DNA of 64,000 bases from Plantactinospora soyae (GTDB taxonomy: Bacteria > Actinomycetota > Actinomycetes > Mycobacteriales > Micromonosporaceae): the NCBI RefSeq assembly GCF_014874095.1, contig NZ_JADBEB010000001.1, positions 8,928,001 to 8,992,000 on the forward strand, given 5' to 3'. The first letter of the stretch is position 1. Each line of letters starts with the position of its first letter. Below are positions 23,358 through 42,592 of this stretch, one piece after another. The notes under the pieces are model-generated. The model saw only the letters and a program-made list of their open reading frames with translations. It was not told the origin of the DNA and did not search any database. Both the position numbers and the translations under genes were made by a program.

Positions 23358-25352
23358 TCACCGCTCCCGCAGCACGGCACAACCACCGGCCGGCAGCGTG
23401 ACGGACTCAGCGCGTACCCCGGTCAGCAGGTCCACTCCGGACGCCGGCACGGTCTGCGGGACGTCGGTGTGGTTCAACAGGAACAGCCAGCTTTCCCCGG
23501 CGGTACGCCGGCGCACCGCCTCCACCCCGTCCGGCGCCCCCGGACAGGTCGGCCCGACGCCGGCCGCCCCGGCGACACCGGCCAGCAGTTCGCGGTACGC
23601 GTCGTCGCCCAGCCGGGTCGAGACGTACCAGGCCACGCCGTCGCCGTACCGGTGTCGGGTCACCGCCGGCCGCCCGTCGAGCACCCCGCCGACGTACGTC
23701 AGCACCGGCTCGGCGCCGGTCAGGCGTACCGTCTCGGACCAGAGCCGGCCGGTGCTGGTGCCGTCGGAGAGCGGCAGCCGCTCCGCGGCGTCGAGCGGGT
23801 GGAACTCCTCGACCCGGATCCCGAGCAGGTCACGGAAGGCACCGGGGTAGCCGTCGAGGCGTACCCGACCGTGTTCGTCGGCGATCCCGCTGAAGTAGCC
23901 GACCACCAGGTGTCCACCGGCCGCCACGTAGTCGCGCACCTGCCGGGCGTACGCGTCCGAGACCAGGTAGAGCGCCGGCAGCACCAGCAGGGCGTACCCG
24001 GAAAGCTCGTCGCCCGGGGCGACCACGTCGACGCCGAGGCCGGCCCGCCACAGGGACCGGTGCGCCGCCGACACCTCGGCCAGGTAGTCGAGCTGCTCCG
24101 ACGGCAGTACGACGGCCTGCATCCCCCACCAGCAGGCCGCGTCCCAGGCGATCGCCACCGGTGCCTGGACCACCCCGCTGTCCACCTCGGCCAACCGGTC
24201 GAGGGTCGCGCCGAGCGCCACCGCCTCCTCGAACGCCCGGGTCTGCGGGCCGGCGTGCGGCAGCAGTGCGGAGTGGAAGAGTTCCGCACCGCCGCGCGAA
24301 GCCCGCCACTGGAAGAACATCGCCCCCCGGGAGCCCCGTGCGACGTGCGCGAGGCTGTGCCGGATCATCCGTCCCGGCTCCTTGGCGTGCATCCGGCCGG
24401 GCGTGAGGACCAGGTTCGGCGCGCTCTCCATCAACAGCCAGCTCGGCCCGCCGACGGCCCGTCGACCCCAGCACCGGGCCAGGTCGGCGGCGAACGCGGT
24501 CTGCTCCTCCGCGCCCGGTCCGGCCTCGCCCGGATAGTGGTCGATCGCCACCAGGTCCACCTCCGTCGACCACCGGGTGTGGTCCACCGGCACCCATCCA
24601 CCGAGTACGTAGTTGGTGGTCACCGGCACCTCCGGGGTGGCCGCGCGGAGCAGGTCACGCTGCTCGACGTACGCCCCGAGGAGCTCGTCGGAGAGGAACC
24701 GGCGGAAGTCCAGGAGTTGGCCGGGGTTGCCGAGGTACTGGGTGGCCCGGGGCGGCCGGATCTGCTCCCAGTCCGAGTAGTACTGGCTCCAGAAGCTGCC
24801 GGTCCACGCCTCGTTCAGCCGGTCCAGCTCGACATAGCGCACTCGCAGCCAGTTCCGGAACGCGGCGGCGACGTGCTCACAGTGGCACGTCGTGCCGTAC
24901 TCGTTGTGCACGTGCCAGAGCGCGAGCGCCGGATGGTCGCCGTACCGCCCGGCCAGCGCGGACGCGATCTTCCGGGCCGCCGTCCGGTACGCCGGGGCGC
25001 TGACGCAGTAGGTGTCCCGGCTGCCGTGACTCAGCCGGACCCCGTCGGCGGTGACCGGCAGCCCCTCCGGGTGCCGCAGCGAGAACCACGGCGGCGGGGA
25101 CGCGGTGGGGGTGGCCAGCGCCACCCGGATGCCGCCGTCGTACAGCAGGTCGAGCACCCGGTCCAGCCACTCGAAGTCGTACCGGCCGGGCTGCGGTTCC
25201 AGGCGCGACCAGGCGAAGACCCCGACCGTGACCAGGTTGACCCGGGCCCGGCGCATCAGCTCGACGTCGGCCGGCCAGAGTTCCGGCGGCCACTGCTCCG
25301 GGTTGTAGTCACCGCCGTAGCAGAGCCCGGTCAGGCCGCCCGGCCAGCGCAT
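23358..25352 (-). CDS. GH42 beta-galactosidase, cytoplasmic
   Basis: 664 residues from the ATG at 25352. Full GH42 architecture: TIM barrel starting GLCYGGDYNPEQWP, acid/base Glu 151 in WHVHNEYG, nucleophile Glu 309 in LLMESAPN, four Cys around CHCEH typical of the zinc-binding GH42 subgroup, then the trimerisation domain (LLVLPALYLVSD) and a small C-terminal beta domain. No signal peptide, so it acts inside the cell. It is divergent from the GH95 gene over 66 bp that contain the shared 22-bp operator. In the context of the locus it would remove beta-linked galactose from imported oligosaccharides. Confidence 0.93.
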   Translation of the reverse strand: MRWPGGLTGLCYGGDYNPEQWPPELWPADVELMRRARVNLVTVGVFAWSRLEPQPGRYDFEWLDRVLDLLYDGGIRVALATPTASPPPWFSLRHPEGLPVTADGVRLSHGSRDTYCVSAPAYRTAARKIASALAGRYGDHPALALWHVHNEYGTTCHCEHVAAAFRNWLRVRYVELDRLNEAWTGSFWSQYYSDWEQIRPPRATQYLGNPGQLLDFRRFLSDELLGAYVEQRDLLRAATPEVPVTTNYVLGGWVPVDHTRWSTEVDLVAIDHYPGEAGPGAEEQTAFAADLARCWGRRAVGGPSWLLMESAPNLVLTPGRMHAKEPGRMIRHSLAHVARGSRGAMFFQWRASRGGAELFHSALLPHAGPQTRAFEEAVALGATLDRLAEVDSGVVQAPVAIAWDAACWWGMQAVVLPSEQLDYLAEVSAAHRSLWRAGLGVDVVAPGDELSGYALLVLPALYLVSDAYARQVRDYVAAGGHLVVGYFSGIADEHGRVRLDGYPGAFRDLLGIRVEEFHPLDAAERLPLSDGTSTGRLWSETVRLTGAEPVLTYVGGVLDGRPAVTRHRYGDGVAWYVSTRLGDDAYRELLAGVAGAAGVGPTCPGAPDGVEAVRRRTAGESWLFLLNHTDVPQTVPASGVDLLTGVRAESVTLPAGGCAVLRER

Positions 25353-25388
25353 CCGCCCCCGCCCTTCCACCGCCCGGGATCGTTGACC

Positions 25389-25410: not shown

Positions 25411-25418
25411 TAGGCGGG

Positions 25419-27734
25419 GTGGATCTCCCTGTCAACGGACTCGTCTCGACCACCGTGACCGACGACTGGGAACACGCGCTGGTCACCGGCAACGGCCGGC
25501 AGGGCGCCCTCTGCTACGGCGGCCCGGCGGGAATCCGGATCACCGTCTCGCACGAGCGGCTGTTCCTGCCGCTGGGTCCGCCGCTCGACCCGCCACCCAC
25601 CGCCCGGATCCTCGCCGAGCTACGGGCGCAACTCGCCGCCGGGCGCTACCAGGAGGCCGCCGACCGGGTGGCGACGTTCGCCGCCGAGGTGGAACCCGGG
25701 TACGCGACCACCCGCTGGGTCGACCCGCTGGTCGGCGCCGCCACCCTGTTCTGCACACCGACGACCGGCACATCCACGGCCGGCATCCCACCGCTGCCGA
25801 ACCCGGCCGACGGCTATCGAAGGCGTACCGACTTCGCCACCGGGGTGGTCACCCAGTCCTGGCGGGGCGTCGACGGCGAGACCGGTGTCGACGGCGAGAC
25901 CGAGGTGGCCGCGTTCGTCTCCCGGGCACACGACGTGCTGGTGGTCCGGTTGACCGGTCCGACCCGGTGGCGGATGAGGCTCGGCCCGATCGGGGGCGAG
26001 CCGCCGGTGCCGGTCGAGGTGCGGATCACCGCCGACGGGCTCGGCCTGCGCGCCCACTTCCCGACCGCCGGCACCGGGCAGGCCACCGGCTACACGGTAC
26101 GGACCAGGCTGGTCGACGACACGCTCCTGCTGCTGCGTACCACGGTGGACGGCGTACCCTCGCCCGGTCCGGAACTGGCGGAACTGCCGGCGGACTTCGA
26201 CACGCTGCTGGCCGCGCACGCCCGGCGGCACGGCGACCTGGTCGGCCGGGTCCGGCTGGACCTGGGTGGAACACGGGCCGGCCGGGCGGCCGACACCGAG
26301 GACCTGCTCGCCGCGGCACCGGGCACGGCGCTCGTGGAACGACTCTTCGCGGCCGGCCGGTACGCGACCGTCTCCGCCTGCGGCGGCCTGCCGCCGACCC
26401 TCCAGGGCGTCTGGAGCGGGACCTACCGACCCGCGTGGAGCAGTGGGTACACCCTGAACGGCAACCTGCCGGCCGCACTGGCCGCGCTGTCGGTCACCGG
26501 TACGCCGGAACTGATGACCCCGCTGTTCGACCTGCTCGACTCGGTCACCGACGACCTGCGGGACAACGCCCGCCGGCTGTACGGCGCGGGCGGCGTGCTG
26601 ACGCCGACCCATCTGACCAGCCACGGCCGGCAGAACCACTTCGGGCCGGTCTGGTGCCAGACGTTCTGGACCGCCGGGGCGGCCTGGTTGTCCCGGCTCT
26701 ACTACGACCACTGGTGTTACACCGGCGACGACCGCTTCCTGCGGGACCGGGCTCTTCCGTTCCTGCGTCGGGCCGCCGAGTTCTATCTGGACTTCGTCAC
26801 CACCGGCCCGGACGGGGACGGCCCGGCCCGGTTCGCGCCGTCGTACTCGCCGGAGAACGCGCCGGCCAACACCGGCTCGCAGGCCGGCGTCGATGCCACC
26901 GCCGACGTCGCCGCCGTCGGTGACCTGCTGCGCAACCTCTCGGCCGCCACCGCGGCACTCCGCACCGCCGAGACCGCGGAGACGGGCGTCGAACCGACCG
27001 GGGAGGGCGTCGAACCGACCGAGGAGCGTTGCCGGGCGCTGCTGGCGGCGCTGCCCGGGTACCGGATCGCCCCGACCGGCGAACTCGCCGAGTGGATCGC
27101 ACCGGAGCTGTCGGACAACCATGCGCACCGGCACGCCTCGCACCTCTATCCACTCTGGTACGAGCCGGACCCGACGATCACCGCCGATCCCCGGCTGCGC
27201 CGGGCCGCCGCCCTGGCGATCCGCCGCCGGCTGGCCTGGTGGCAGGGCGCGGAGTCCGACGAGATGGGGTACGGGCTGGCGCAGCTCGGGCTGGCCGCCG
27301 CCGGGCTCGGGCTGGCCGAGGAGGCGTACCAGACCCTGCTGCTGATGGCCGGTCGCTACTGGCGCCCCAACCTGGTCTCCACGCACAACCGGAACGCGAT
27401 CTTCAACGTGGACCTCTGCGGCGGACTGCCGGCGGTGGTCGCGGCCATGCTGCTGCGGAGCACCCTCGGTCCCGTCCGGGCCGGCGCCGGGGCACCGCCG
27501 AGCCGGCTGGACCTGTTGCCCGCGCTTCCCCGGGCCTGGCGGCGGGGCAGCGTCACCGGGCTGCTGGCCCGGGGACCGGTGACGGTGGCCCGGCTGGCCT
27601 GGACACCGACGGATGTCGAGGCGGATCTGGTCTCCCCGGTGGACCGGTCGGTGACGGTGGGGCTGCCGGTCGGCGGGCCGGTCCACGTCGAGTTGGTGGC
27701 CGGGCGCTCGTATCGACTCCGCTTCCGCCGTTGA
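25419..27734 (+). CDS. GH95-family alpha-L-fucosidase/galactosidase, cytoplasmic
   Basis: 771 residues from a GTG at 25419. The N-terminal domain opens with ALVTGNGRQGALCYGG, the GH95 entry motif. The catalytic (alpha/alpha)6 barrel has YTLNGNLPAAL in the region of the two catalytic Asn residues, SPEN with candidate acid Glu 479, and NHAHRHASHLYPLW further on. The enzyme inverts alpha-1,2-linked L-fucose (some members take L-galactose). No signal peptide. It sits between GH42 and GH31 and would act first on fucosylated xyloglucan side chains. The gene stop overlaps a TTGACA element of the next promoter. Confidence 0.88.
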   Translation: MDLPVNGLVSTTVTDDWEHALVTGNGRQGALCYGGPAGIRITVSHERLFLPLGPPLDPPPTARILAELRAQLAAGRYQEAADRVATFAAEVEPGYATTRWVDPLVGAATLFCTPTTGTSTAGIPPLPNPADGYRRRTDFATGVVTQSWRGVDGETGVDGETEVAAFVSRAHDVLVVRLTGPTRWRMRLGPIGGEPPVPVEVRITADGLGLRAHFPTAGTGQATGYTVRTRLVDDTLLLLRTTVDGVPSPGPELAELPADFDTLLAAHARRHGDLVGRVRLDLGGTRAGRAADTEDLLAAAPGTALVERLFAAGRYATVSACGGLPPTLQGVWSGTYRPAWSSGYTLNGNLPAALAALSVTGTPELMTPLFDLLDSVTDDLRDNARRLYGAGGVLTPTHLTSHGRQNHFGPVWCQTFWTAGAAWLSRLYYDHWCYTGDDRFLRDRALPFLRRAAEFYLDFVTTGPDGDGPARFAPSYSPENAPANTGSQAGVDATADVAAVGDLLRNLSAATAALRTAETAETGVEPTGEGVEPTEERCRALLAALPGYRIAPTGELAEWIAPELSDNHAHRHASHLYPLWYEPDPTITADPRLRRAAALAIRRRLAWWQGAESDEMGYGLAQLGLAAAGLGLAEEAYQTLLLMAGRYWRPNLVSTHNRNAIFNVDLCGGLPAVVAAMLLRSTLGPVRAGAGAPPSRLDLLPALPRAWRRGSVTGLLARGPVTVARLAWTPTDVEADLVSPVDRSVTVGLPVGGPVHVELVAGRSYRLRFRR

Positions 27735-27737
27735 CAG

Positions 27738-27759
27738 TTTGTTGGGTTACCAAAGAAAC
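27738..27759. promoter_or_regulatory. shared 22-bp motif, copy 2 (upstream of GH31)
   Basis: TTTGTTGGGTTACC followed by AAAGAAAC, immediately after a TTGACA box (27731-27736) at the end of the GH95 gene. Same proposed ROK operator as at 25389 and 36290. Confidence 0.6.
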
Positions 27760-27838
27760 TAATAGGAGCCCGCCGGGTGTCACGGTCACCGCCGCCGACA
27801 ACCGCGCCGGTCCGCGTCCCGGGAGCCGAGGAGACCGA

Positions 27839-30184
27839 ATGCCGTACCGACCGCCCCTGGTCCCGCACGAGACGTTCGTCGCCGACCCGCCCGAGCTACC
27901 GGTCCGGGCGCCGGGCGAGCACGGACTCTCCGCGCTGACCCGGGCCGAGGTACTCAGCGCGGACGGCCAGGGCGTGACGCTCAAGGCGGGCACCTCGGAC
28001 GGTGGCTCGCTCGCGGTCCGGATCACCGCCGCCGGCGAGGGCGTGATCCGGGTACGCCTCAGCGAGGACCCGACGGCCCGGGGCCGCGCCGCTCGCGCCC
28101 TGCCCCTGGTGCACCCCCAGCCGTACCGGGCCGACGTGCGGGTGGAGACCGACCGGGTACGCGTCGACGCCGGGGCCGTCGTCGCGGAACTCTGCCTCGA
28201 CCCCTGGCACCTGCGCTTCGTCGATTCCACCGGGGCCGAACTGGTCAGCCAGAGTCGCGGCGAGCAGGACATCAGCGGACGGCTCCGGACGCTGCCGTTC
28301 GGCCGCTCGCTGGTCGACGGCACAGTGGCCGCCTACCACGAAAGTTTCATCACCCCCGGCGACGAGCAGTTCGTCGGCCTCGGCGAGAAGTTCACCCCGC
28401 TCGACAAGCGCGGCCAGCGGGCGCTGATGTGGAACTTCGACGCCTTCGGCAGCGAGTCCGACCGCTCGCACAAGAACGTCCCGCTCTACCTGTCCAGCCG
28501 GGGCTACGGGGTGCTGGTCGACAGCGGCATGCCGGTCGAGTTCGACATCTGCCAGTCCACCCACAGCTGCGTACAGATCCTGGTGCCGGACGACCTGATC
28601 GACTACTACGTACTCGCCGGCCCCACCCCGGTGGAGATCCTGGACCGGTACGACCGGCTGACCAGCCGGCCCGCGTTGCCGCCGAAGTGGGCCTTCGGCA
28701 CCTGGATCTCGTCCGGGTTCTTCCGGGACAGCCAGCCGCGGGTGCTGGAGCGGGCCCAGCAGATCCGGGACCGGGGCATCCCCTGCGACGTGCTGCACCT
28801 CGACTGCTACTGGCAGGTCGCCGGAGCCTGGTCGGACCTGCGCTGGGACGCCGAGCAGTTCCCGGATCCGACCGGCATGCTGGCGTCCCTGGCCGAGCAG
28901 GGCTTCAAGGTCAGCCTCTGGATGAACCCGTACGTGATGACCGGCAGCCCGCTCTTCGCCGACGCGGCGGAGGCCGGTTACTTCCTGCGCCGGACGGACG
29001 GCTCGGTCTACGTCGCCGACACCTGGCACGGCAGTCATCCGGCCGGCGGAATCGTCGACTTCACCAATCCGGCGGCGGTCGACTGGTTCGCCAGCCTGCT
29101 CCGGCCGCTGCTGGAGCAGGGCGTCAGCGTGTTCAAGACCGACTTCGCCGAGGGCGTACCGGCCGACTCCGTGGCGTACAACGGGATGACCGGCGTCGAG
29201 CTGCACAACGTCTACACGCTGCTCTTCAACGACGTCGTCTCGGCGGTCACCCAGCAGGTCGCCGGGCATGCCACGGTGTGGGCCCGGTCGTCGTACCTCG
29301 GTGGGCAGCGGCACTCGGCGCAGTGGAGCGGGGACGGCAACTCGACGTACCCGGCGATGGCCAGCACGCTGCGCGGTGGGCTGAGCCACGGACTCTCCGG
29401 GGTGCCGTTCTGGAGCCACGACACCGGCGGGTTCCACGGCACACCGTCGCCTGACCTCTACGTACGCTGGGCCCAGTTCGGCGCGCTGTCCCCGCTGATC
29501 CGGTTCCACGGCACCACCAGCCGGCTGCCCTGGGACTTCCCCGCCGATGCCGAGCGGGACGCGGTGGACGCGCTCCGGCTGCGGTATCGGCTGATGGCGT
29601 ACCTCTACTCGGCCGCCGTGGTGGCGGCCCGGACCGGTGCGCCGATGATGCGGGCGCTGCTGGTGGACTCCCCCGACGACCCGGCCGCCTGGACGGCGGA
29701 ACTGGAGTACCGGCTCGGGCCGGACCTGCTGGTGGCCCCGATGACGAACCCGGAGGGGCGCCGGCACGTGTACCTTCCGGCCGGCGACTGGGTCGACTTC
29801 TGGACCGGTGAGGTGCACACCGGCGGCCGGCACCTGCTGGTACGGCGACCACTGCACCAGGTCCCGCTCTTCGTCCGGTTCGGCGCGCTGATTCCGGTGC
29901 TGCCGCCGGCCGACCGGGTCGGCGACGCGCCCTTCTCCGATGTCACCGTGCTTAGCTGGGGCGCCAGCGACGCGAGCACGGTGGTGTACGACGTCGACGG
30001 CGACACGACGATCCGGGCCAGCCGCTCCGGGAACGAGTTCCGGGTCGAGGCCGACGGGCCGCTGTCGATCAGTGGAATCGCCCTCGCCAGGGTGGACGGA
30101 GCCCGGCTGCCGGATCGGCTGCTGCTCAGCGGCGCCGAGACGGTGCCGGTGCTCCTGGATGGACTACCCACCGTGCGGGGTTGA
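27839..30184 (+). CDS. GH31 alpha-xylosidase (YicI type), cytoplasmic
   Basis: 781 residues from the ATG at 27839 (GAGGAG, 6-base spacing). N-terminal beta-sandwich, TIM barrel, then two beta domains as in YicI. Nucleophile Asp 435 is in FKTDFAE and acid/base Asp 499 in WSGDGNS. The KTDF pattern and LDCYWQ are those of alpha-xylosidases rather than alpha-glucosidases. It releases xylose from the non-reducing end of xyloglucan oligosaccharides. No signal peptide. It is downstream of GH95 with its own candidate promoter and operator. Confidence 0.93.
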   Translation: MPYRPPLVPHETFVADPPELPVRAPGEHGLSALTRAEVLSADGQGVTLKAGTSDGGSLAVRITAAGEGVIRVRLSEDPTARGRAARALPLVHPQPYRADVRVETDRVRVDAGAVVAELCLDPWHLRFVDSTGAELVSQSRGEQDISGRLRTLPFGRSLVDGTVAAYHESFITPGDEQFVGLGEKFTPLDKRGQRALMWNFDAFGSESDRSHKNVPLYLSSRGYGVLVDSGMPVEFDICQSTHSCVQILVPDDLIDYYVLAGPTPVEILDRYDRLTSRPALPPKWAFGTWISSGFFRDSQPRVLERAQQIRDRGIPCDVLHLDCYWQVAGAWSDLRWDAEQFPDPTGMLASLAEQGFKVSLWMNPYVMTGSPLFADAAEAGYFLRRTDGSVYVADTWHGSHPAGGIVDFTNPAAVDWFASLLRPLLEQGVSVFKTDFAEGVPADSVAYNGMTGVELHNVYTLLFNDVVSAVTQQVAGHATVWARSSYLGGQRHSAQWSGDGNSTYPAMASTLRGGLSHGLSGVPFWSHDTGGFHGTPSPDLYVRWAQFGALSPLIRFHGTTSRLPWDFPADAERDAVDALRLRYRLMAYLYSAAVVAARTGAPMMRALLVDSPDDPAAWTAELEYRLGPDLLVAPMTNPEGRRHVYLPAGDWVDFWTGEVHTGGRHLLVRRPLHQVPLFVRFGALIPVLPPADRVGDAPFSDVTVLSWGASDASTVVYDVDGDTTIRASRSGNEFRVEADGPLSISGIALARVDGARLPDRLLLSGAETVPVLLDGLPTVRG

Positions 30185-30189
30185 AGGTC

Positions 30190-31790: not shown

Positions 31791-31862
31791 TTGTCCTCCT
31801 GTCGAGCGGACTAACAGAAGGACCGTACCAAATAGTTTTGTTGCAGACTATCTGTCTGCGAT

Positions 31863-32363: not shown

Positions 32364-32366
32364 AGC

Positions 32367-32463: not shown

Positions 32464-33402
32464 TCAGCCCTTGACCGCGCCGATGATCACGCCCTTGACG
32501 AAGTGGCGCTGCACGAAGGGGTAGACCAGCACGATCGGCGAGACCGTGACGATGACCACCGCCATCTTGATCGCCAGCGTCGGGGGCATCGAGACGCCCA
32601 CCGCCATCCCCGAGGTGTTCGGGGACTGGCCGGCGAGAATGAAACTCTGCAAGATCCGCTGGATCGGGAACTTCGAGTTGTCGTCGATGTACAGCAGCGC
32701 GTTGAACCAGACGTTCCAGTAGCCGACCGCGTAGAACAGGCCGACCACGGCGATCACCGCGCGGGACAACGGCAGCACGATCCGGGCCAGGATCCGGAAC
32801 TCGCCGGCACCGTCGATCCGGGCACTGTCCAGCAGCTCCGCCGGAATGTTCTGGAAGAAGGCCCGGATCACCACCAGGTTGAAGACACTGATCGCGGTCG
32901 GCAGGATCAGCGCCCAGATGCTGTTCTTCAGCCCGAGCCCGGTGACCACGAGATAGCTGGGCACCATGCCGGGATAGATCAGGAAGGTCAGCAGGAAGTA
33001 GAAGAGCAGACCCCGGTGCGCCACCGAGCCGGGGCGGGACAACCCGTACGCGGCCAGCACGGTCAGGGTCAGGCTCACCGCCGTACCCAGTACGGTGATT
33101 ATCGTACTGATCCAGAGCGCCCGGGCGACCAGACCACCGGAGAAGATCGTCACGTACGCCGAGAAGTCGATCTCCCTCGGCACCAGGACCAGACCACCGA
33201 CCTCGTTGATGGTCTCCCTGGACGCCAGACTGGTCACCAGGACCACCCAGAGCGGAATCAGCACCGCCAGAACCACTCCGGTGAGGACGGCGCCCCGAGT
33301 GACCTGGCCGGCCACGCTCGGCTTCTCCTCCCAGGCCGGTCGGCTGCTCGGCCGTCGGCGCAGGTCCGGACCGACCTTCCGTACAGGATCAATCACACTC
33401 AT
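32464..33402 (-). CDS. carbohydrate ABC transporter permease (LplC/YtcP type)
   Basis: 312 residues, six membrane helices. The permease coupling motif is in ELLDSARIDGAGEFRILARIVLPLSRAV (EAA-loop type). It begins with a 4-bp ATGA overlap with the upstream permease gene. Together they form the heterodimeric channel for oligosaccharides delivered by the binding lipoprotein. No ATPase gene is in the operon; actinobacterial sugar importers often share one ATPase (MsiK) encoded elsewhere. Confidence 0.92.
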   Translation of the reverse strand: MSVIDPVRKVGPDLRRRPSSRPAWEEKPSVAGQVTRGAVLTGVVLAVLIPLWVVLVTSLASRETINEVGGLVLVPREIDFSAYVTIFSGGLVARALWISTIITVLGTAVSLTLTVLAAYGLSRPGSVAHRGLLFYFLLTFLIYPGMVPSYLVVTGLGLKNSIWALILPTAISVFNLVVIRAFFQNIPAELLDSARIDGAGEFRILARIVLPLSRAVIAVVGLFYAVGYWNVWFNALLYIDDNSKFPIQRILQSFILAGQSPNTSGMAVGVSMPPTLAIKMAVVIVTVSPIVLVYPFVQRHFVKGVIIGAVKG

Positions 33403-34517
33403 GATCGCGAATACACTCCCCGCTCGCCGAGGGCGTGGGCGAACCGGTTGGCGGCCAGGATCAGCACCAGTCCGACCATCGCCTTGAACAGGCCGGCCGC
33501 CGCTCCGTACCCGTAGTTTCCGGTCGTGATGGAGTTGAAGTAGACGAAGGTGTCCAGCACCTCGGCGGCCTGCCGCCCCACGCCGTCCCGTTGCAGCATG
33601 AACTGCTCGAAGCCGACCGAGAGCGCGTCACCCAGCCGCAGGATCAACAGCAACACGATCACCGGCCGCAGGCCGGGCAGGGTCACGTGCCAGAGCCGCC
33701 GCCAGCGGCTCGCCCCGTCCACCGCCGACGCCTCGTATAGATGTTGGTCGATCATGGACAGCGCGGCGAGGAAGACGATCGTGCCCCAGCCCACGTCCTT
33801 CCAGACGGTCTCGGCGGTGACCAGCAGGATGAAGGTGTCCGGGTTGGACATGATGTTCCACGGTTCGAGCCCGACGTCGCGCATCTCCTGGGCGAGCAGC
33901 CCCGCCCCGCCGAACATCTGGACGAAGAACGTCACCACCAGCACCCAGCTGAAGAAGTGCGGCAGGTAGACCACGGTCTGCACGAAGCCACGCAGCCTCG
34001 AGGAGAGGATGTTGTGCAGCATGATCGCCAGCACGACCGGCAACGGGAAGTAGAAGACGAGCTGGAACGCCGTGATCGCCAGGGTGTTCCGCAGCGCGTC
34101 CCAGAACGCCGGGTCACCGAAGAGCGCCTCGAACTGGCCGAACCCGATCCACGGACTGGACGTGAACGCCGCCAGCGGCGTGTCCCCGGCGTACGGGTTG
34201 TAGTCCTGGAACGCGACCACGTTGCCCAGGGTCGGCAGGTAGTGGAAGACCAGCAGCAGCAGGGCGGCCGGGGTCACCATCAACAGCAGTGGCCAGTCCC
34301 GGCGCAGCCGGGCCCGCAACGGCGCCCGCTTGCCGCGCCGGCCCCGACCCCGTCCGTGCCGGACCGGCGTACCCGGAGGATCGCCGGTGCGGTCCGGGTC
34401 GCTGGCCGCGCTCAGGGCGTCGGCGCCGGTACGGTTGCCGGCCGGCCCGGAGAAGCCGGGCGGGCGGCGCCGGTCCTCACCGGCACCACCCGCCCGGGCC
34501 GCCTCACGAGTGCTCAT
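33399..34517 (-). CDS. carbohydrate ABC transporter permease (LplB type)
   Basis: 372 residues. About 60 residues of polar, Arg/Gly/Pro-rich N-terminus precede six helices starting at LLLMVTPAALLLLVFHYLP. The coupling loop is YEASAVDGASRWRRLWHVTLPGLRP. ATGA overlaps on both sides show tight translational coupling to the binding protein and the second permease. Confidence 0.92.
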   Translation of the reverse strand: MSTREAARAGGAGEDRRRPPGFSGPAGNRTGADALSAASDPDRTGDPPGTPVRHGRGRGRRGKRAPLRARLRRDWPLLLMVTPAALLLLVFHYLPTLGNVVAFQDYNPYAGDTPLAAFTSSPWIGFGQFEALFGDPAFWDALRNTLAITAFQLVFYFPLPVVLAIMLHNILSSRLRGFVQTVVYLPHFFSWVLVVTFFVQMFGGAGLLAQEMRDVGLEPWNIMSNPDTFILLVTAETVWKDVGWGTIVFLAALSMIDQHLYEASAVDGASRWRRLWHVTLPGLRPVIVLLLILRLGDALSVGFEQFMLQRDGVGRQAAEVLDTFVYFNSITTGNYGYGAAAGLFKAMVGLVLILAANRFAHALGERGVYSRS

Positions 34518-36193
34518 CGTCCGGCGTCGGCCAGTGCCTTGGCACGGAAGTCGCGAGCCTCGTCACCACCGCCGCTGCGCCACTCCGAGATGATCGTGTC
34601 GAGATCGGTCAACGGGCGGCGCCCCCGCATGACGTCGATGATCTTCTCGTCGGTCGGGGTCAGGCTGGCCTTGAACCGGGCCGGCATCTCCAGCTTGAGC
34701 CCCGCCCACGGGTCCTTCTCCATGAACTTCACCATGTCGTTGGAGTAGGTGAGCGCGTCCCGGACGAAGTTCGGCGTCTGTGGGAACGGCTGGAGCACCG
34801 GGTTCCGCCCGCTGATGAAGAAGTACTGGTTCTGGATCTCCTTGAAGCCGAGGTCGGTCTTGACCGGCCCGGTGGCCGTCCGGGTGTGGTGCTTGCCCTC
34901 GACCCCGTACTCGCGCAGGTCGAACTCCTTCGTGCCGAACGGCGCGGAGCACCAGTTGATCACCCGCAGCAGCTCCTCGACCCGGGCCTTGCCGAGCCCC
35001 TTCTTGATGAAGGTGAACGAGATCGGGTCGTCGTCGCCCCAGACCAGCGGGTCACCGCCGGTCGCCGAGAAGATCGGCACCGCCTGCACGTTGAAGCCGG
35101 GGGTGGTCTTCTGGTGCTCGGCCTGCAGGCCCTGCCAGGCGCCGGGACCGTCCTGCATGAAGACGATCTTGCCGCCGGCCATCAGCTGCTTGGCGTCGGC
35201 GCCCTTGGTCGCCACCAGGTCGGGATGGACCAGGCCGGCCTGGAAGACCTTCACCATGAACTCGACGGCCTGCCGGAACTCCGGCGTCTCGTACTTGAAC
35301 TCCGGGGTGCCGTCCGGCTTGAGCCGCCAGCCGTCGTCGGTACCCGGTGCCTTGTAGAACATCTGGACCACCGCGAAGATCTCGTTGAAGGCCCAGACCC
35401 CCTTGCCGGGGTTGGTCACCGCCTTGCCGACCTCGAAAAGCTCGTCGATGGTCTTCGGATAGGTCAGCCCGGCGGCGTCGAGCAGGTCCTTGCGGTAGAG
35501 GAGCGCCCACGGGAAGGGACCGTCGGTCGGGTTCGGGACGGCCATCAGCCGCTCGTTCCAGAACGAGTTCCGCCAGGCCCCGGACGGGAAGGTGGCCAGC
35601 ATCGGGTACGCGTCGACCGCGGGGCCCTTGAGATAGTCGGTGAGGTCCTCGAAGAGTACGGCGACCGCGTCGGAGAAGCGCGGCAGCTTCGACACCTCCC
35701 ACTCGGGTACGCAGAGCAGGTCCGGTACGTCCCGCGCCCCGAGCATCGCGTTGAGCTTGTTGGCGTAGAGGAGGCCGTCCTGGACGCTGAAGTTGACCTC
35801 GACGCCGAGTTCCGCGTTCACCGCCGCCAGATAGGCGCTCTGTCCCACGCCGGGCGGGGCCGGCCCCCAGGCCGGGGTCATCGCGGTGATCTTCTGGCCG
35901 CTGGTCGCGGGCTTGTCGGCGATGGCGTCGACCAGGCTGGTCGGGAACTCCGTGTAGCCGTCAGGCACCGGCCGGACACCGGTGATGCTCGGCTTCGGAA
36001 TGTCCAGCGCCAGTTCCTTGTGGTTGGGCAGCAGGCCGGCGAGCTTGTCCAGGTCCTGCGCGTTGCTGGTGGGGCCCACCTCGCCGCCGCAGCCGGCGAG
36101 CAGGCCGCCGCCGGCGGTCGCCGCGGCACCGAGGCCCACCAGGCTCAGGAAGTTTCTACGGTTGGTGGCGCCGCCCGGGCCGGATGGTTCCAC
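34514..36193 (-). CDS. Tat-exported oligosaccharide-binding lipoprotein
   Basis: 559 residues, a large family 1 / LplA-type solute-binding protein. The N-terminus combines a twin-arginine motif (RRNFLSLVG) with a lipobox LLAGC, so it is exported folded and lipidated. The size and the aromatic-rich mature domain suit a ligand of several sugar units. First gene of the three-gene importer operon; divergent from the ROK gene across 270 bp containing copy 3 of the shared motif. Proposed ligand, from context only: xyloglucan oligosaccharides. Confidence 0.92.
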   Translation of the reverse strand: MEPSGPGGATNRRNFLSLVGLGAAATAGGGLLAGCGGEVGPTSNAQDLDKLAGLLPNHKELALDIPKPSITGVRPVPDGYTEFPTSLVDAIADKPATSGQKITAMTPAWGPAPPGVGQSAYLAAVNAELGVEVNFSVQDGLLYANKLNAMLGARDVPDLLCVPEWEVSKLPRFSDAVAVLFEDLTDYLKGPAVDAYPMLATFPSGAWRNSFWNERLMAVPNPTDGPFPWALLYRKDLLDAAGLTYPKTIDELFEVGKAVTNPGKGVWAFNEIFAVVQMFYKAPGTDDGWRLKPDGTPEFKYETPEFRQAVEFMVKVFQAGLVHPDLVATKGADAKQLMAGGKIVFMQDGPGAWQGLQAEHQKTTPGFNVQAVPIFSATGGDPLVWGDDDPISFTFIKKGLGKARVEELLRVINWCSAPFGTKEFDLREYGVEGKHHTRTATGPVKTDLGFKEIQNQYFFISGRNPVLQPFPQTPNFVRDALTYSNDMVKFMEKDPWAGLKLEMPARFKASLTPTDEKIIDVMRGRRPLTDLDTIISEWRSGGGDEARDFRAKALADAGR

Positions 36194-36289
36194 GGGGCGC
36201 TCCCTTCGTTATCGCCGAACGGCGGTGGCCCCCGCGAGCCACGCGGGTGCGAATCGTTCGGTTGCTGGGTGGGTATGGGGTAGAGTTAG

Positions 36290-36311
36290 TTCGTCGGGTG
36301 ACTAAACAAAC
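36290..36311. promoter_or_regulatory. shared 22-bp motif, copy 3 (importer/ROK divergent promoter)
   Basis: TTCGTCGGGTGACT followed by AAACAAAC; 17 of 22 positions match the copy at 27738. It lies between the divergent binding-protein and ROK genes, consistent with autoregulation and control of the importer. Confidence 0.6.
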
Positions 36312-36463
36312 GTAATCGACGGTGACCGGTGCCACAAGCACCGGAATCATGGTGCGGCGGGCGGACGTGGCCCCGGCGCCCGGAGGTACGGCATGATGGG
36401 GCGCACCGTCGGCGACCGGAGCGCACCGGCCCGGACACCGATACGCGGGGAGCGGGGCTGACC

Positions 36464-38047
36464 TTGATCACGACGCAGACCGGGCCACAGCCGGCCGATC
36501 TCGCCGACGTACGGGCCACGAACCTCGCCGTCGTGCTGCGCTTCGTACGCGTACACGCACCCTGCTCACGCGCGGACATCGCCGCCTCGACCGGGTTGAA
36601 CAAGGCGACCGTCTCCAGCCTGGTCGCGGAACTGATCGACCGCCGCCTGCTCCGGGAGACCGGGCTGGCGGAGAACCGAATCGGGCGGCCGGCCACGATG
36701 CTGGTGCTCGACGGGGCCCCCTACGCGGCGATCGGCATCGAGGTGAGCATCGACGAGCTGACGGTGGTCGCCGTCGACCTCTCCGGCACCGAACTGCTTT
36801 CCTGGCGACGGGCCTTCGACGGCTCGACCGCCTCCCCCGGCCGGGCGGTCAGCGCGATCGCCGCACTCGCCGGCCGGGCCGTCAACCGGGTCACCGGTCA
36901 ACAGCGCCAGGTACTCGGTCTCACCGTCGCGGTGCCCGGACTGGTGGACGGGGCCGGCGCCGTCCGGCTGGCCACCACGCTCGGCTGGCGGGACCTGCCG
37001 CTCGGTGCCGACCTGCGCCGGGCCCTGCGCGAGCCCGCCTTCGAGGTGGTGGTGGACAACGACGCCAACCTCGCGGCCCTGGCCGAATACCGGCACGGCC
37101 CGCACGCCGGCACCGCCAACCTGGTCCACCTGACCGGCGGCGCGGGCCTCGGCGCGGGTGTGGTGGCCGACGGCCGGTTGCTGCGCGGCGGGCGCGGCTT
37201 CGCCGGTGAACTGGGCCATGTGACGATCGATCCGGACGGCCCGCTCTGCCCGTGCGGCCGGCGTGGCTGCCTGGAGGCGGTGGCCGGGATTCCGGCGCTG
37301 ATCCGCCGGGCGCTGCCGGATGCGGCGGAGGACGGGCCGGTCACCGACTTCGCGCCCGAGGTCGACCGGATCCGGACCAAGGCCCGCCGGGGCGACCAGT
37401 CCACCCTGGACGCGCTCGCCGAGATCGGCCGGCACCTCGGGCACGGCGTGTCCCTGCTGGCCAACCTGGTGAACCCCGAGGTCGTGCTGCTGGGCGGATA
37501 CTTCGCGACGCTGGCGCCGTGGCTGTTGCCCGCGGCCGAGGCCGAACTGACCGCCCGCTCGCTGGCACCGGAGGCCGGCGGCACCCGGCTGCTCGCCTCC
37601 GCCCTCGGCACCGGCGCCGCGGCCGCGGGTGGCGCGGCCCGGACCCTGGAGACGGTCGACGCGGGCCGGCTGCCGAGCCGCGATCCGGGTCGGGGCACCG
37701 GCCGGGAGCCCGGTCCCGCCGCGAGCGTCACCCGGAAGTCGCCCACCCGGTCCGCCAACCCGCCGGGCGCGGGCGGCCACAGTTCCGCCGCCCCGGATTC
37801 CGCCGGCTCCGACACCACCGCCCCCGGCTCCGGCACCACCGCTCCGCGCTCCGACACCACCGCTCCGCGCTCCGGCACCACCGTTCCCGGGTCGCCCGCC
37901 GCCCCGGCGAGCGGGACCGACAGCGTCGCCGCCGGCTCCGACAGCGCGGTCGTCGATGCGGCCGACGCCGCCGGGTCCGAGCCCGTCGCAGCGGCGACGG
38001 AGCCGCCGTCGACCAGCTCAGAGCGGCTGCCGGCGGGACGTCGCTGA
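36464..38047 (+). CDS. ROK-family transcriptional repressor with long C-terminal tail
   Basis: About 527 residues if translation starts at the TTG at 36464, which has GGGGAGCGGGG upstream; no in-frame ATG or GTG is better placed. Winged helix at about 20-75 (SRADIAASTGLNKATVSSLVAELIDRRLL). The ROK fold follows with DNDANLAALAEY, GHVTIDPDG and the zinc motif CPCGRRGCLE. ROK repressors normally end near 400 residues; here about 130 more residues of Ser/Thr/Ala/Pro/Gly follow, partly a tandem repeat (TTAPRSDTTAPRSGTT). Proposed to repress the GH42, GH95, GH31 and importer units through the 22-bp motif, released by a sugar. Confidence 0.88.
   Translation: MITTQTGPQPADLADVRATNLAVVLRFVRVHAPCSRADIAASTGLNKATVSSLVAELIDRRLLRETGLAENRIGRPATMLVLDGAPYAAIGIEVSIDELTVVAVDLSGTELLSWRRAFDGSTASPGRAVSAIAALAGRAVNRVTGQQRQVLGLTVAVPGLVDGAGAVRLATTLGWRDLPLGADLRRALREPAFEVVVDNDANLAALAEYRHGPHAGTANLVHLTGGAGLGAGVVADGRLLRGGRGFAGELGHVTIDPDGPLCPCGRRGCLEAVAGIPALIRRALPDAAEDGPVTDFAPEVDRIRTKARRGDQSTLDALAEIGRHLGHGVSLLANLVNPEVVLLGGYFATLAPWLLPAAEAELTARSLAPEAGGTRLLASALGTGAAAAGGAARTLETVDAGRLPSRDPGRGTGREPGPAASVTRKSPTRSANPPGAGGHSSAAPDSAGSDTTAPGSGTTAPRSDTTAPRSGTTVPGSPAAPASGTDSVAAGSDSAVVDAADAAGSEPVAAATEPPSTSSERLPAGRR
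37795..37890 (+). repeat. tandem repeat inside the ROK tail
   Basis: Three to four copies of a 24-bp unit built on CACCACCGCTCCGCGCTCCG encode the repeated Thr/Ala/Pro/Ser stretch of the C-terminal tail. Confidence 0.65.
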
Positions 38048-38293: not shown

Positions 38294-38307
38294 TCGAAGC
38301 GCTTCGA
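38294..38307. promoter_or_regulatory. LacI-type operator, copy 2
   Basis: Second identical TCGAAGCGCTTCGA, 65 bp from the first (centre to centre), 72 bp before the GH3 start. Paired sites suggest looping or cooperative binding. Confidence 0.75.
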
Positions 38308-38378: not shown

Positions 38379-41300
38379 ATGAGCGACAGGACGTTCCGCG
38401 ACCCCGACCGCCCGCTCGACGTACGGGTCGCCGATCTGCTGGGCCGGCTCACCCTCGCCGAGAAGATCGCACTACTGCACCAGCACCAGGCCCCGGTGCC
38501 CCGGCTCGGGCTGCCCGCCTTCCGTACCGGCACCGAGGCGCTGCACGGGCTGGCCTGGCTCGGCCCGGCCACCGTCTTTCCCCAGGCGCTCGGGCTCGGC
38601 AGCACCTGGAACCCCGACCTGGTCCGGGCGGTCGGGTCCGCCGTCGGCGACGAGGTCCGGGGCCTGCACCACAAGGACCCGACCCGGGTCGGCCTCAACG
38701 TCTGGGCCCCGGTGGTCAATCCGCTCCGGGATCCCCGCTGGGGCCGCAACGAGGAGGGCTACGCCGAGGACCCCTGGCTGACCGGACGGCTCGGCACCGC
38801 GTACGCCCAGGGATTGCGCGGAGACCACCCTGAGTACCTGAAGACCGCGCCCACGCTCAAGCACTTCCTCGGCTACAACAACGAGACCGACCGGTGTACG
38901 ACGTCCAGCAACCTGCCGCCCCGGGTGCTGCACGAGTACGAGCTGCCGGCCTTCCGGGAGCCGATCGCGACCGGCGCCGCAGTGGCGGTGATGGCGTCGT
39001 ACAACCTGGTCAACGGTCGGCCGGCGCACCTGAGCCCGCTGATCGGCACCGAGCTGCGGCGGTGGACCAGCGACGAGATCATGGTGGTCGGCGACGCCGG
39101 TGCGGTCTCCAACATCGCCGGCGCACAGGGCTACCACCCGGACCACCCGAGCGGGTACGCGGCGGCGCTGCGCGCCGGAATCGACAGCTTCACCGAGGAC
39201 GGCGAGGACTCCGGCCCGACCGTCGAACGGGTCGGCGAGGCGCTGCGGCGGGGCCTGCTCGACGAGTCCGATCTGGACACCGCCGTCCAGCGCATCCTCA
39301 GCATCCGGTTCCGGCTCGGCGACTTCGACCCGCCGGAACGCAACCCCTACACGGCGATCACCACCGACGTGATCAACTGCGCCGCCCACCAGGAGCTGGC
39401 CCGGGAGGCCGCCCGACAGTCGATCGTGCTGCTCCGCAACGCTCCCACGGCCGGCGCCGGGCCGCTGCTTCCGCTCGACCCGGCACGCCTGGGCCGGCTG
39501 GCCGTACTCGGTCCGCTCGCCGACACCCTCTACGAGGACTGGTACAGCGGAACACTGCCGTACGCGGTCACCGCCCGCGCGGGGCTGGCCGCCCGACTCG
39601 GCGCCTGCGACGTCGTACACCACACCGGGGCGGACCGGATCGCGCTGCGTACCGCCGGAGGTTACGTCCGGGCCGCCGGCGGTCCGGACGGTGGCCCGTT
39701 GACCCTCGCCACCGCCGCACCCGACACCCGGGGTCCGGCCGGCACCCGCCCGTCGGCCGACGGCGACCGGAGTACCGCCGACAGCCGGTTCCCGGCCGAC
39801 GGCGTGTTCGAGGTCTTCGACTGGGGCCAGGACATCGTCGCGCTCCGGACGCTGGCGAACGGCCGGCACGTCGGCGCCGACGAGGAGGGCACACTGGTCA
39901 ACGACCGGCCCGGCCCCGGTGGCTGGGTGGTCCGGGAGACCTTCCGACTCGTCGGCCGACCGGCCGGCGACCACGTACTGCACCACCTGGCCAGCAACCG
40001 GTACGTCACCGCCGGCCCGGACGGCGTACTGCGGGCCGACGCCGTCGACCTCGACGAGGGCAGCGGGTTCACGGTCGAACTCCTGCACGACGGGGCGGCC
40101 GGGGCGGCGGCACTGGCCCGCGAGGCCGACGTCGCGGTGGTCGTACTCGGCAACCATCCGATGGTCTGCGGCCGGGAAACCGAGGACCGGGCCGACCTGG
40201 CGCTGCCGACCGGGCAGGAGACCCTGCTCCGGGCCGTGTACGCGGCCAACCCGCGTACGGCGCTGGTGGTCAGCAGCAGCTACCCGTACGCGCTGGGCTG
40301 GGCCGACGAGCACCTGCCGGCCGTACTCTGGTCGGCCCACGGCGGCCAGGAGTACGGCACCGCGCTGGCCGCCGTGCTCTGCGGCGACGCCGATCCGGGC
40401 GGCCGGCTGACCCAGACCTGGTACCACGATGCGGCCGAGCTACCCGACCTGTTCGACTACGACGTGATAGCCACCGACACCACGTATCTCTACCATCGGG
40501 GCACCCCGCTCTACCCGTTCGGCCACGGGCTGAGTTACGCCGACTTCGCCTACGCTGACCTGCGGGTGAGCGCGGACGAGGTGGACGCGGCCGGAGAGAT
40601 CGAGGTCAGCGTGCGGGTGAGCAACGTCGGCACGCGACCGGGCGACGAGGTGGTGCAGCTCTACACCCGGCAGCGGCGGTCCCGGGTCAAGCAGCCCCTG
40701 CGCCAGCTCCGGAACTTCGCCAAGGTGACCCTGGCTCCGGGCGAGCGGACCACGGTACGGTTCCGGCTGCGCGCCGCCGACCTCGCGCACTGGGACGTCA
40801 TCCAGGGCCGGTACGTCGTGGAGGACGCCCGGCACACCGTCGCGGTCGGCCGGTCCAGCGCCGACCTCGTACTGAGCACCGCCCTGACCGTGCACGGCGA
40901 GCCGATCCGACCCCGGGAGCCACTCGCCGGTCCACTGTGGGCGATGGACCACGACGAGTACGCCGGCACCGAGCCGCTGCCCGACGGTCCGGGCGGTGCC
41001 GCCGTGGTCGCCCGGGAGGCGGGCGGCTGGATCCGGTTCTCCCGGGTGGACTTCGGCGCCGGGGTACGCGGCGTGGCCGCCCGGGTCGGTGGACGCCGGC
41101 CACTGCGGGACGGGGCCGAACTCGTACTGCGGTTGGACGATCCGGTCTGGGGCCCGGTGGCCGGTACGGTCCCGATCCCGGCCGGCGACGAGCACGATCC
41201 GGGACCGGCCACCGACCAGGGACCAGCCACCGATGCGGGGCCGCGGCTGGGTACCGGTGCCGACCCCGGCATGGTTCCGGCGGTCGTCGGGGCGACGGAC

Positions 41301-41462
41301 CGGCAGCCGGACCGCGAGGTGTCCGGTCACTGGCGCGGCGAGGCCACCGGGGTACGCGACCTGTATCTGCTGTTCGACGCGCCGGGAGCTACCGTGAGCT
41401 GGCTGGCCTTCGAAGACGGGACGGACGGCGACCGTTCCGCGACTGGAAGTGGGGGCGCCTAG
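38379..41462 (+). CDS. GH3 glycosidase with fascin-like insert and C-terminal CBM-like domain, cytoplasmic
   Basis: 1027 residues, no signal peptide. GH3 barrel with LKHFLGYNNETDR and candidate nucleophile Asp 239 in VVGDAGAVSN, where most GH3 enzymes have SD rather than GD. The second alpha/beta domain (DVAVVVLGNHPMV, catalytic-Glu region GRETEDRADLALP) is interrupted at about 420-570 by a beta-trefoil-like segment (FDWGQDIVALRTLANGRHV ... NRYVTAGPDGVLRA) resembling fascin repeats. A fibronectin-like domain follows, then a CBM6-like beta domain at about 870-1015. Activity is likely beta-glucosidase or beta-xylosidase on imported oligosaccharides. Its stop overlaps the lacI GTG by one base. 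Confidence 0.9.
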   Translation: MSDRTFRDPDRPLDVRVADLLGRLTLAEKIALLHQHQAPVPRLGLPAFRTGTEALHGLAWLGPATVFPQALGLGSTWNPDLVRAVGSAVGDEVRGLHHKDPTRVGLNVWAPVVNPLRDPRWGRNEEGYAEDPWLTGRLGTAYAQGLRGDHPEYLKTAPTLKHFLGYNNETDRCTTSSNLPPRVLHEYELPAFREPIATGAAVAVMASYNLVNGRPAHLSPLIGTELRRWTSDEIMVVGDAGAVSNIAGAQGYHPDHPSGYAAALRAGIDSFTEDGEDSGPTVERVGEALRRGLLDESDLDTAVQRILSIRFRLGDFDPPERNPYTAITTDVINCAAHQELAREAARQSIVLLRNAPTAGAGPLLPLDPARLGRLAVLGPLADTLYEDWYSGTLPYAVTARAGLAARLGACDVVHHTGADRIALRTAGGYVRAAGGPDGGPLTLATAAPDTRGPAGTRPSADGDRSTADSRFPADGVFEVFDWGQDIVALRTLANGRHVGADEEGTLVNDRPGPGGWVVRETFRLVGRPAGDHVLHHLASNRYVTAGPDGVLRADAVDLDEGSGFTVELLHDGAAGAAALAREADVAVVVLGNHPMVCGRETEDRADLALPTGQETLLRAVYAANPRTALVVSSSYPYALGWADEHLPAVLWSAHGGQEYGTALAAVLCGDADPGGRLTQTWYHDAAELPDLFDYDVIATDTTYLYHRGTPLYPFGHGLSYADFAYADLRVSADEVDAAGEIEVSVRVSNVGTRPGDEVVQLYTRQRRSRVKQPLRQLRNFAKVTLAPGERTTVRFRLRAADLAHWDVIQGRYVVEDARHTVAVGRSSADLVLSTALTVHGEPIRPREPLAGPLWAMDHDEYAGTEPLPDGPGGAAVVAREAGGWIRFSRVDFGAGVRGVAARVGGRRPLRDGAELVLRLDDPVWGPVAGTVPIPAGDEHDPGPATDQGPATDAGPRLGTGADPGMVPAVVGATDRQPDREVSGHWRGEATGVRDLYLLFDAPGATVSWLAFEDGTDGDRSATGSGGA

Positions 41463-42592
41463 TGTCCGAAACGTCGCGCCCCACCTCGCGACCCGTGCCC
41501 CGGCAACCCGCCGGGACACCCGCCAAACGGCCGGACATGGTCACCATCGCCGACGTCGCCCGGCACGCCGGAGTCGCGGTCAGCACCGTGTCGTACGTGC
41601 TCAGCGGCAAGCGCGCGATCTCGGCGTCCACCCGGGAACGGGTGCTGGCCAGTGTGCGTACCCTCGGCTACCACCCCAACGCCGGGGCCCGGGCGCTGGC
41701 CAGTAGGCGGGCCAACGTGATCGCGCTGGTGCTGCCGCTGCGCTCCGGGATGCACCTGCCGGTCCTCATGCAGTTCGCCACCTCGGTGGTGACCACGGCG
41801 CGGCAGTTCGACCACGACGTACTGCTGATGACCGCCGACGAGGGACCGGCCGGGCTGCGCCGGATCGCCGCCAGCGCGATGGTGGACGGGATCGTGCTGA
41901 TGGACGTCGAGATGCACGACGCCCGGGTGCCGCTGCTCCGCGACCTGGAACGGCCCAGTGTGCTGATCGGCTTTCCGGCCGATCCGACCGGACTGACCTG
42001 TGTGGACCTGGACTTCTACCGGGCCGGGGAGGCCTGTGTCGAGCACCTGGCCGGGCTCGGCCACCGCCGGATCGCGCTGCTCGGCGCACCGGCGGTGGTC
42101 TACGACCGGGACACCGGGTTCGCCCACCGCACCAGGGCCGGGTTCGCCGAGGCCGCCGCGCGGTACGGCATCGCGGCGATCGCCCAGCCCTGCGAGGAGA
42201 ACTTCGACGCGGTCCGCCGGGAGTTGGCCGGACTGCTGGCCCGGCAGCCGGACCTGTCCGCGCTGGTGGTGCACAACGAGGCGGCGGTCGGCCAGGTGCT
42301 GGCGGCGCTGCCGGCGCTCGGCCGACGGGTTCCGGACGACGTGTCGGTGGTGGCGATCTGTCCGGACGAGGTCGCCGAGCGGGCCAGCCCGGCCCTGACC
42401 TCGGTGCTGATTCCGGCCGAGGAGGTGGGCCGGCAGGCGGTGTCGCTGCTGATGCGCAAGCTGGAGGGTGATCCGGTCCCGGAGGGGACCCTGCTCGATC
42501 CCCGGCTGACCGTCCGGGCCAGCACCACTCGGGCACCGGCCGCCGACCCGGGCAGCCCCGCGCCCACCGGGGTGACGCGGCTCCGGAGCTGA
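41462..42592 (+). CDS. LacI-family transcriptional repressor
   Basis: 376 residues from the GTG at 41462, translationally coupled to the GH3 gene; the conserved domain starts only at MVTIADVARHAGVAVSTVSYVLSG, so an ATG at 41537 is an alternative. Helix-turn-helix plus hinge (YHPNAGARALASRR), then a periplasmic-binding-type sensor domain. It most likely binds the two TCGAAGCGCTTCGA palindromes before the GH3 gene, controlling GH3 and itself, and possibly the related box before the rhamnogalacturonan lyase gene. Confidence 0.92.
   Translation: MSETSRPTSRPVPRQPAGTPAKRPDMVTIADVARHAGVAVSTVSYVLSGKRAISASTRERVLASVRTLGYHPNAGARALASRRANVIALVLPLRSGMHLPVLMQFATSVVTTARQFDHDVLLMTADEGPAGLRRIAASAMVDGIVLMDVEMHDARVPLLRDLERPSVLIGFPADPTGLTCVDLDFYRAGEACVEHLAGLGHRRIALLGAPAVVYDRDTGFAHRTRAGFAEAAARYGIAAIAQPCEENFDAVRRELAGLLARQPDLSALVVHNEAAVGQVLAALPALGRRVPDDVSVVAICPDEVAERASPALTSVLIPAEEVGRQAVSLLMRKLEGDPVPEGTLLDPRLTVRASTTRAPAADPGSPAPTGVTRLRS

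Follow-up and report, generated by a model that had tools for sequence, protein, structure and literature searches.

In R. cellulolyticum, xyloglucan oligosaccharides are taken up by an importer encoded without its own ATPase and are dismantled in the cytosol by Gal42A, Xyl31A and Glu3A, and clusters of this kind were proposed by the authors as a Gram-positive marker (PMC4780118). Here we describe a comparable locus of Plantactinospora soyae at positions 23358-42592 of the window, by which we mean the whole 64,000-nucleotide stretch analysed (positions 8,928,001 to 8,992,000 of contig NZ_JADBEB010000001.1, part of a 9.7 Mb single-contig genome). We consider it highly likely that this is a xyloglucan-oligosaccharide utilisation locus, combining import, cytoplasmic dismantling and ROK/LacI control. 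The first two elements had been proposed by an earlier sequence-only reading of this DNA, and they are supported by conserved synteny, by GH74 genes near GH31 in relatives and by a shared promoter motif.

The likeness to the R. cellulolyticum genes Ccel_2451-2458 covers several features: glycoside hydrolases (GH) of families 42, 31 and 3 are encoded together, apparently without signal sequences in our case (judged by eye), a binding lipoprotein and two permeases occur with the ATPase elsewhere, secreted xyloglucanases (candidates in our case) are encoded elsewhere, and alpha-fucosidase genes are mentioned for related clusters in the legend of Fig. 12 (PMC4780118). The sequence-only reading had found the design unusual for its GH42 galactosidase, a view contradicted by Gal42A, a cytosolic enzyme acting on xyloglucan oligosaccharides (PMC4780118); the comparison corrects the idea that GH42 or absent secreted enzymes make the locus odd. 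Regulation differs, however, being of the two-component and AraC type in R. cellulolyticum (PMC4780118), whereas here we find a ROK and a LacI repressor and no two-component regulator. We treated the two-component regulator as a variable feature because the same paper ties it to the clusters of its Fig. 12a and shows comparable clusters of distant bacteria in Fig. 12b.

Other systems share parts of this arrangement. Anaerocellum (Caldicellulosiruptor) bescii Athe_2052-2057 likewise comprises an ATPase-less importer and GH31, with a suggested contribution from GH42 and a putative fucosidase (PMC12710961), but its GH42 is encoded elsewhere (Athe_1927) and AraC-family and two-component regulators are predicted (PMC8579813). 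The Thermotoga maritima cluster gloR-gloEFGKL-cel74-fucAI, predicted to serve xyloglucan oligosaccharides, also has an importer, Cel74, a gene named as a fucosidase and its own LacI-family regulator; unlike our locus, its importer has five genes, and the two regulators named, GloR and CelR, are both of the LacI family, with no ROK (PMC3750489). The xyloglucan utilisation loci of Cellvibrio, Bacteroides and Xanthomonas resemble ours in GH95 plus GH31, a beta-galactosidase and endo-xyloglucanases (PMC8245568), whereas they differ in TonB-dependent uptake and GH35 in Xanthomonas and GH35 in Cellvibrio, against an ATP-binding cassette importer and GH42 here, and in periplasmic breakdown (PMC4780118). 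In Firmicutes, an alpha-xylosidase cluster is predicted to belong to the regulon of XylR, a ROK-family regulator (PMC2873477). In the open-access literature we found no report of a ROK-controlled xyloglucan locus in actinomycetes, nor any on xyloglucan in Plantactinospora, both of which are weak evidence of absence. The locus design is already known from other Gram-positives, with what seems to be a different kind of repressor here; what differs, judging from gene content, is ROK/LacI control in place of a two-component system, plus an optional GH95. If our reading is right, a xyloglucan strategy with proof from a clostridium would also operate in a large group of actinomycetes from soil and plants, and the locus would give a genomic marker for it together with a specific repressor and operator.

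The features of the locus are as follows; start codons were set from homology and reading frame, with no gene-caller, and operator-like sites carry no strand.

23358..25352, minus strand: GH42, predicted cytoplasmic beta-galactosidase (galactose off L side chains); Pfam 436 bits, best PDB match the beta-galactosidase 9ta3 (541 bits), start by homology
25419..27734, plus strand: GH95, accessory, predicted to act in the cytoplasm as alpha-L-fucosidase or possibly as alpha-L-galactosidase; Pfam, PDB matches, active-site alignment
27732..27764: ROK-type operator-like site before GH31, TTAGTT-N13-AACAAACT with 0 mismatches in 14 fixed bases; position weight matrix (PWM) score 18.8
27839..30184, plus strand: GH31, YicI-like predicted cytoplasmic alpha-xylosidase; Pfam 291.8 bits, PDB, NCBIfam
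32464..33402, minus strand: importer permease B; Pfam BPD_transp_1
33399..34517, minus strand: importer permease A; Pfam BPD_transp_1
34514..36193, minus strand: twin-arginine lipoprotein, predicted oligosaccharide-binding protein; Pfam SBP_bac_1, invariant Arg-Arg and Cys, fold matches
36284..36316: ROK-type operator-like site between the divergently transcribed importer and ROK genes; pattern match and PWM
about 36464..38047, plus strand: ROK-family repressor, probable TTG start; Pfam ROK 151.9 bits
38229..38242: palindrome TCGAAGCGCTTCGA, predicted LacI operator 1; found without mismatch at only two places of the 9.7 Mb genome, this being one
38294..38307: palindrome TCGAAGCGCTTCGA, predicted LacI operator 2; the second of the two exact genome copies
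38379..41462, plus strand: GH3, predicted cytoplasmic beta-glucosidase acting on the debranched backbone; N- and C-terminal GH3 domains and an Fn3-like domain by Pfam
about 41462..42592, plus strand: LacI-family repressor whose start overlaps the stop of GH3; Pfam LacI, Peripla_BP_3

From left to right the order is thus GH42 (minus), GH95 and GH31 (plus), a major facilitator superfamily (MFS) transporter and a MarR-like gene (minus), the permeases and binding protein (minus), and ROK, GH3 and LacI (plus). The sequence-only reading had placed GH42, GH95 and GH31 in a row; all three are present by Pfam, but GH42 is divergent from GH95-GH31, with 66 bp between the chosen starts. Its three-gene importer without an ATPase is borne out, Pfam recognising two permeases and one binding protein at 32464-36193 (minus strand), and so are the ROK and LacI repressors and the GH3, although the MFS/MarR pair breaks up the gene set. 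None of the four hydrolases (GH42, GH95, GH31, GH3) has a hydrophobic N-terminus, as judged by eye only.

In the pathway that we propose, xyloglucan would be cut by secreted endo-xyloglucanases whose genes lie outside the locus (GH74, possibly also GH12 and GH5-CBM46). The oligosaccharides would enter the cell through the two permeases with the help of the binding lipoprotein, powered by a shared ATPase encoded elsewhere. In the cytoplasm, GH95 would take off L-fucose (or L-galactose) where present, GH42 would release galactose, GH31 xylose and GH3 the backbone glucose. The ROK repressor, divergent from the importer, may govern the importer and the side-chain enzymes, and the LacI repressor the GH3-lacI operon. 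All of these activities, the order of the steps, the inducers and the binding of the predicted sites by ROK and LacI are what we infer from the genes.

A layout similar to GH42/(GH95)/GH31/importer/ROK/GH3/LacI recurs in other actinomycetes. GH31 was searched for in 61 genomes, of which 18 (the window genome included) carried relatives 59-100% identical and 30 had some match at the cut-off. Two sets of loci were compared, namely 17 relative loci from this search and 80 further loci (L050-L129), with four places in both sets (L033/L050, L035/L052, L036/L051 and L043/L112) and some loci cut by contig ends. GH31, both permeases, the binding protein and ROK occurred together (each at least 40% identical) in 13 of the 17 and 18 of the 80 loci. 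Among the 13 full-set loci, GH42 was present in 13 and GH3 (at least 50% identical) in 11; among the 18, the numbers were 17 and 15. GH42 on the opposite strand, starting at most 3 kb from the GH31 start, was found in 14/17 and 43/80 loci. As for the four loci of the 17 that lack the full set, L033 and L045 are cut or hold GH31 only, and L044 and L047 are complete with the binding protein at 33%. GH31 and GH42 are the most constant members, joined in Micromonosporaceae by ROK and GH3; some loci lack the importer. The window's GH31 shares 95% identity with its P. alkalitolerans counterpart.

Relatives also link the locus to endo-xyloglucanases. The order in Thermobifida fusca is GH95-GH31-GH74-permeases-binding protein-ROK-GH3, where the GH74 (P0009) directly follows GH31 and, judged by eye, begins like a secreted protein. 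GH74 matches of 591-925 residues occurred in 17 of the 80 loci, T. fusca included; GH74 lies after GH42 in Phytomonospora and some kb after GH31 in 14 Nonomuraea loci and one '[Actinomadura] parvosata' locus, and Jidongwangia has a secreted-looking GH12 at the far end of GH42. Another xyloglucanase candidate, a secreted protein encoded next to GH42 in Phytohabitans and close to it in other Plantactinospora, was rejected, as it is a polysaccharide lyase family 11 (PL11) rhamnogalacturonan lyase (P0010).

As the sequence-only reading had noted, no endo-xyloglucanase was seen in the Pfam-scanned parts of the window; it had left the choice between an enzyme elsewhere and scavenging. The P. soyae genome encodes a GH74 about 500 kb from the locus, 59% identical to the T. 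fusca GH74 and with GH74 xyloglucanases as its best solved-structure matches, and in addition two GH12 enzymes and one protein with carbohydrate-binding modules (CBM), CBM2-GH5-X2-CBM46. We call these endo-xyloglucanase candidates at the family level, with secretion judged by eye. By this family assignment the missing endo-enzyme, at least the GH74, is encoded elsewhere in the genome, and since such genes exist scavenging is not needed.

A TTAGTT-N13-AACAAACTAA-like element lies in the importer/ROK gap of 31 compared sequences, with 0-4 mismatches in 16 fixed bases. Its 14-base form gave four rows in the window, equal to two sites on both strands, against a shuffled expectation of 0.06. A PWM was trained on 26 distinct importer/ROK sites, some from loci that were later scanned, and scored at least 13 at 122 merged sites in L050-L129. 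Of these, 112 could be assigned to genes of the locus (from 30 bp inside to 350 bp upstream of the estimated gene start), namely 69 to GH31, 17 to the binding protein, 11 to GH42, 10 to ROK and 5 to GH95; the 10 that lie elsewhere precede GH74 (9) or GH12 (1). Raw hits numbered 184 for the real matrix, against an average of 2.7 (range 0-42) for twenty column-shuffled matrices and a single hit for the reversed one. As the threshold was picked after the scores had been seen, the scanned loci are related to each other, training and scanned loci overlap, and a single shuffled matrix reached 42 hits, we put weight on the 85 sites before GH31, GH42 or GH95 and the 10 before GH74 or GH12, not on all 122.

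Within the P. soyae genome, the gene for CBM2-GH12 has an operator-like site about 50 bp upstream; among its relatives (L150-L161), 7 of 12 had a PWM hit of at least 10, on the upstream side by coordinates, and 5 had none. The second GH12 type (L162-L169, L177-L179) had a PWM hit of at least 10 in 6 of 11. The N13 pattern at up to 3 mismatches matched four distinct places in the genome and its backward control two, so that taken alone it is weak there; a match at G000:C1 2340206-2340234 lies away from carbohydrate genes and is perhaps due to chance. A palindrome with another spacing, TTAGTTT-N7-AAACTA, has two exact places in the genome, before the second GH12 and before GH74. At up to 2 mismatches it occurs at eight distinct places, compared with three rows in the backward control, the six inexact ones being a divergent gap between AA10 and PL11 genes, GH5-CBM46, AA10-CBM2, CBM2-GH12, GH43 and the GH31 site. 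It could be a differently spaced ROK operator or a site recognised by a related regulator. The N7-like palindromes before the two AA10 lytic polysaccharide monooxygenase (LPMO) genes and the CBM2-GH5-X2-CBM46 gene lie at G000:C1 5794062, 6496765 and 4681171 (L197, L199 and L198, respectively).

The GH3 gene is preceded by a different element. The LacI-type palindrome TCGAAGCGCTTCGA has exactly two copies in the whole genome, both before GH3, and occurs in 45 of 97 loci (L033-L129), in 42 of them within 300 bp of the GH3 match start; of the remaining three, L041 has no GH3 in the stretch compared, L115 has the palindrome before a second GH3 match, and the third is L126. Because the operator-like sequences of ROK/importer and GH3/LacI differ, these probably form two regulatory units, as far as promoter sequences tell. 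A search at up to 2 mismatches for the CelR palindrome in L129, L147, L146, L178 and the window found a sole match, with 1 mismatch, in L178 downstream of the second GH12.

Taken further, these sites may outline an actinobacterial xyloglucan regulon, a tentative proposal to which we give slightly less than even credence. In it, ROK would sense xyloglucan breakdown products, TTAGTT...AACTAA-type operators would couple the importer and GH42/GH95/GH31 to the unlinked GH74, GH12, GH5-CBM46 and even LPMO genes, a separate LacI loop would gate only GH3, and GH95 would be gained and lost as a clip-on for fucosylated xyloglucans.

Several observations weigh against a xyloglucan locus under ROK/LacI control. 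The window's own GH42/GH95 gap has no PWM site scoring at least 9, and the different spacing (N7) at the P. soyae GH74 and second GH12 perhaps indicates another regulator; within 1.5 kb of this GH74 there is no N13-type site, but the N7 palindrome is present. Around GH31, 62 of the 80 loci lack the full importer and ROK set. Thirteen of these, from Micromonospora and one unclassified Micromonosporaceae, have ROK at most 600 bp after GH31 and no importer in the gap, and many Streptosporangiaceae loci have a different importer after GH31, with GH3 more distant. Turning to the enzymes, GH31, whose nearest PDB entry is YicI (447 bits), scored 587.8 bits with the NCBIfam alpha-xylosidase model NF007940, narrowly under the cut-off of 606. 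GH3 fits both xylosidase and glucosidase models in PDB and NCBIfam, its PDB matches including a beta-xylosidase, beta-glucosidases and isoprimeverose-producing enzymes, so that by homology it could be a glucosidase or something else. The nearest PDB entry of CBM2-GH12 is 6sdu, of broad family, and xyloglucan-specific GH12 entries score lower. The importer-less loci with ROK after GH31 include L059, L061, L062, L070 and L072 plus eight others.

The alternative that survives best, though we still hold it to be unlikely, keeps xyloglucan as the target and has this GH95 clade remove L-galactose or another sugar in place of L-fucose. The Pfam model of the GH95 catalytic domain matched at 222.5 bits (cut-off 27), and the PDB matches are 7kmq (best) and 4ufc. 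We take 7kmq to be the Xanthomonas alpha-1,2-L-fucosidase of PMC8245568, from a xyloglucan locus, and its residue spacing agrees, which argues for fucose. The protein retains the second Asn of T-x-N-x-N, the Glu of SPEN, presumably the catalytic acid, and the Asp of FNVD. Roles of a base Asn and an activating Asp are described for GH95 (PMC4491172, PMC12282258), and PMC8245568 instead names an Asp as the acid. In favour of another sugar, NCBIfam gave no match, the clade is divergent (37-40% identical to two aligned members of a second GH95 type), and the first Asn of T-x-N-x-N, kept in Plantactinospora, is Asp in all other members aligned there, of both the window type (e.g. L080, L087, L129) and the second type. 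A Thr at the 'fucose/galactose' position might have pointed to alpha-L-galactosidase, but we discarded this argument, for 7kmq has Thr too and the Thr/His position is neither specificity-setting nor diagnostic of fucose according to PMC8245568, which speaks against a non-fucose enzyme. A structure model of GH95 was mediocre (mean predicted local distance difference test score 68.9) and was not used.

Whichever sugar it removes, GH95 is an accessory by its distribution, and its fucosidase activity is a prediction. The window type is present at the locus in 3 of 7 Plantactinospora genomes and absent from it in 4, which makes the fucose step optional, not core; G002, of the same genus, has only a 38% relative elsewhere in its genome. 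Nine of the 80 loci have the window type, and 12 (Micromonospora, Verrucosispora) instead have the second type after LacI, as at L072:17273-19450 and L063:8204-10444.

That two unrelated systems merely adjoin, GH42/GH95/GH31 acting on one glycan and importer/ROK/GH3/LacI on another, is in our view very improbable. The MFS/MarR pair between the halves, the separate operator type of GH3-lacI, the 13 importer-less loci (with GH42, GH31, ROK and mostly GH3) and the different importer at many Streptosporangiaceae GH31 loci could be read in this way. However, the importer adjoins GH31 without this MFS/MarR pair in L039 as well as in loci of Micromonospora, Phytohabitans and Jidongwangia, ROK still adjoins GH31 where the importer is missing, and the importer/ROK motif recurs before GH31, GH42 and GH95. 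The pair itself (30318-32363, minus strand; the MarR-like gene assigned from its sequence) occupies the identical place in all six same-genus relatives compared. MarR matches were found only in Plantactinospora, as were close MFS matches, those elsewhere lying at 30-36%, and the pair seems to have been inserted at the level of the genus and to have no part in the pathway. Marginally less probable still is another alpha-xylosylated main target such as complex glucuronoarabinoxylan, which B. ovatus attacks with paired GH31 and GH95, the latter an alpha-L-galactosidase (PMC4491172), since it is GH74 and GH12 that, among secreted enzymes, bear the motif or neighbour GH31 in relatives, as seen without a systematic xylanase search of the loci.

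Returning to xyloglucan import, the twin-arginine residues R12 and R13 and the lipobox C35 of the binding protein are invariant in 21 aligned sequences, the window's included. Its best fold matches are AlgQ1/AlgQ2 and other large-glycan binders (template modelling score about 0.6), which we judged too general to name a ligand, with fused maltose-binding constructs crowding the list. The P. soyae genome encodes five MalK-type ATPases, none of them in the window and two apparently stand-alone; one of the five presumably serves this importer.

Outside the locus, the window holds a second GH3 gene at 53827-56616 (plus strand) and a CBM2-PL11 rhamnogalacturonan lyase gene at 14926-17220 (minus strand), about 6 kb from GH42. 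A PL11 relative adjoins GH42 or lies within about 9 kb of it in other Plantactinospora and in Phytohabitans.

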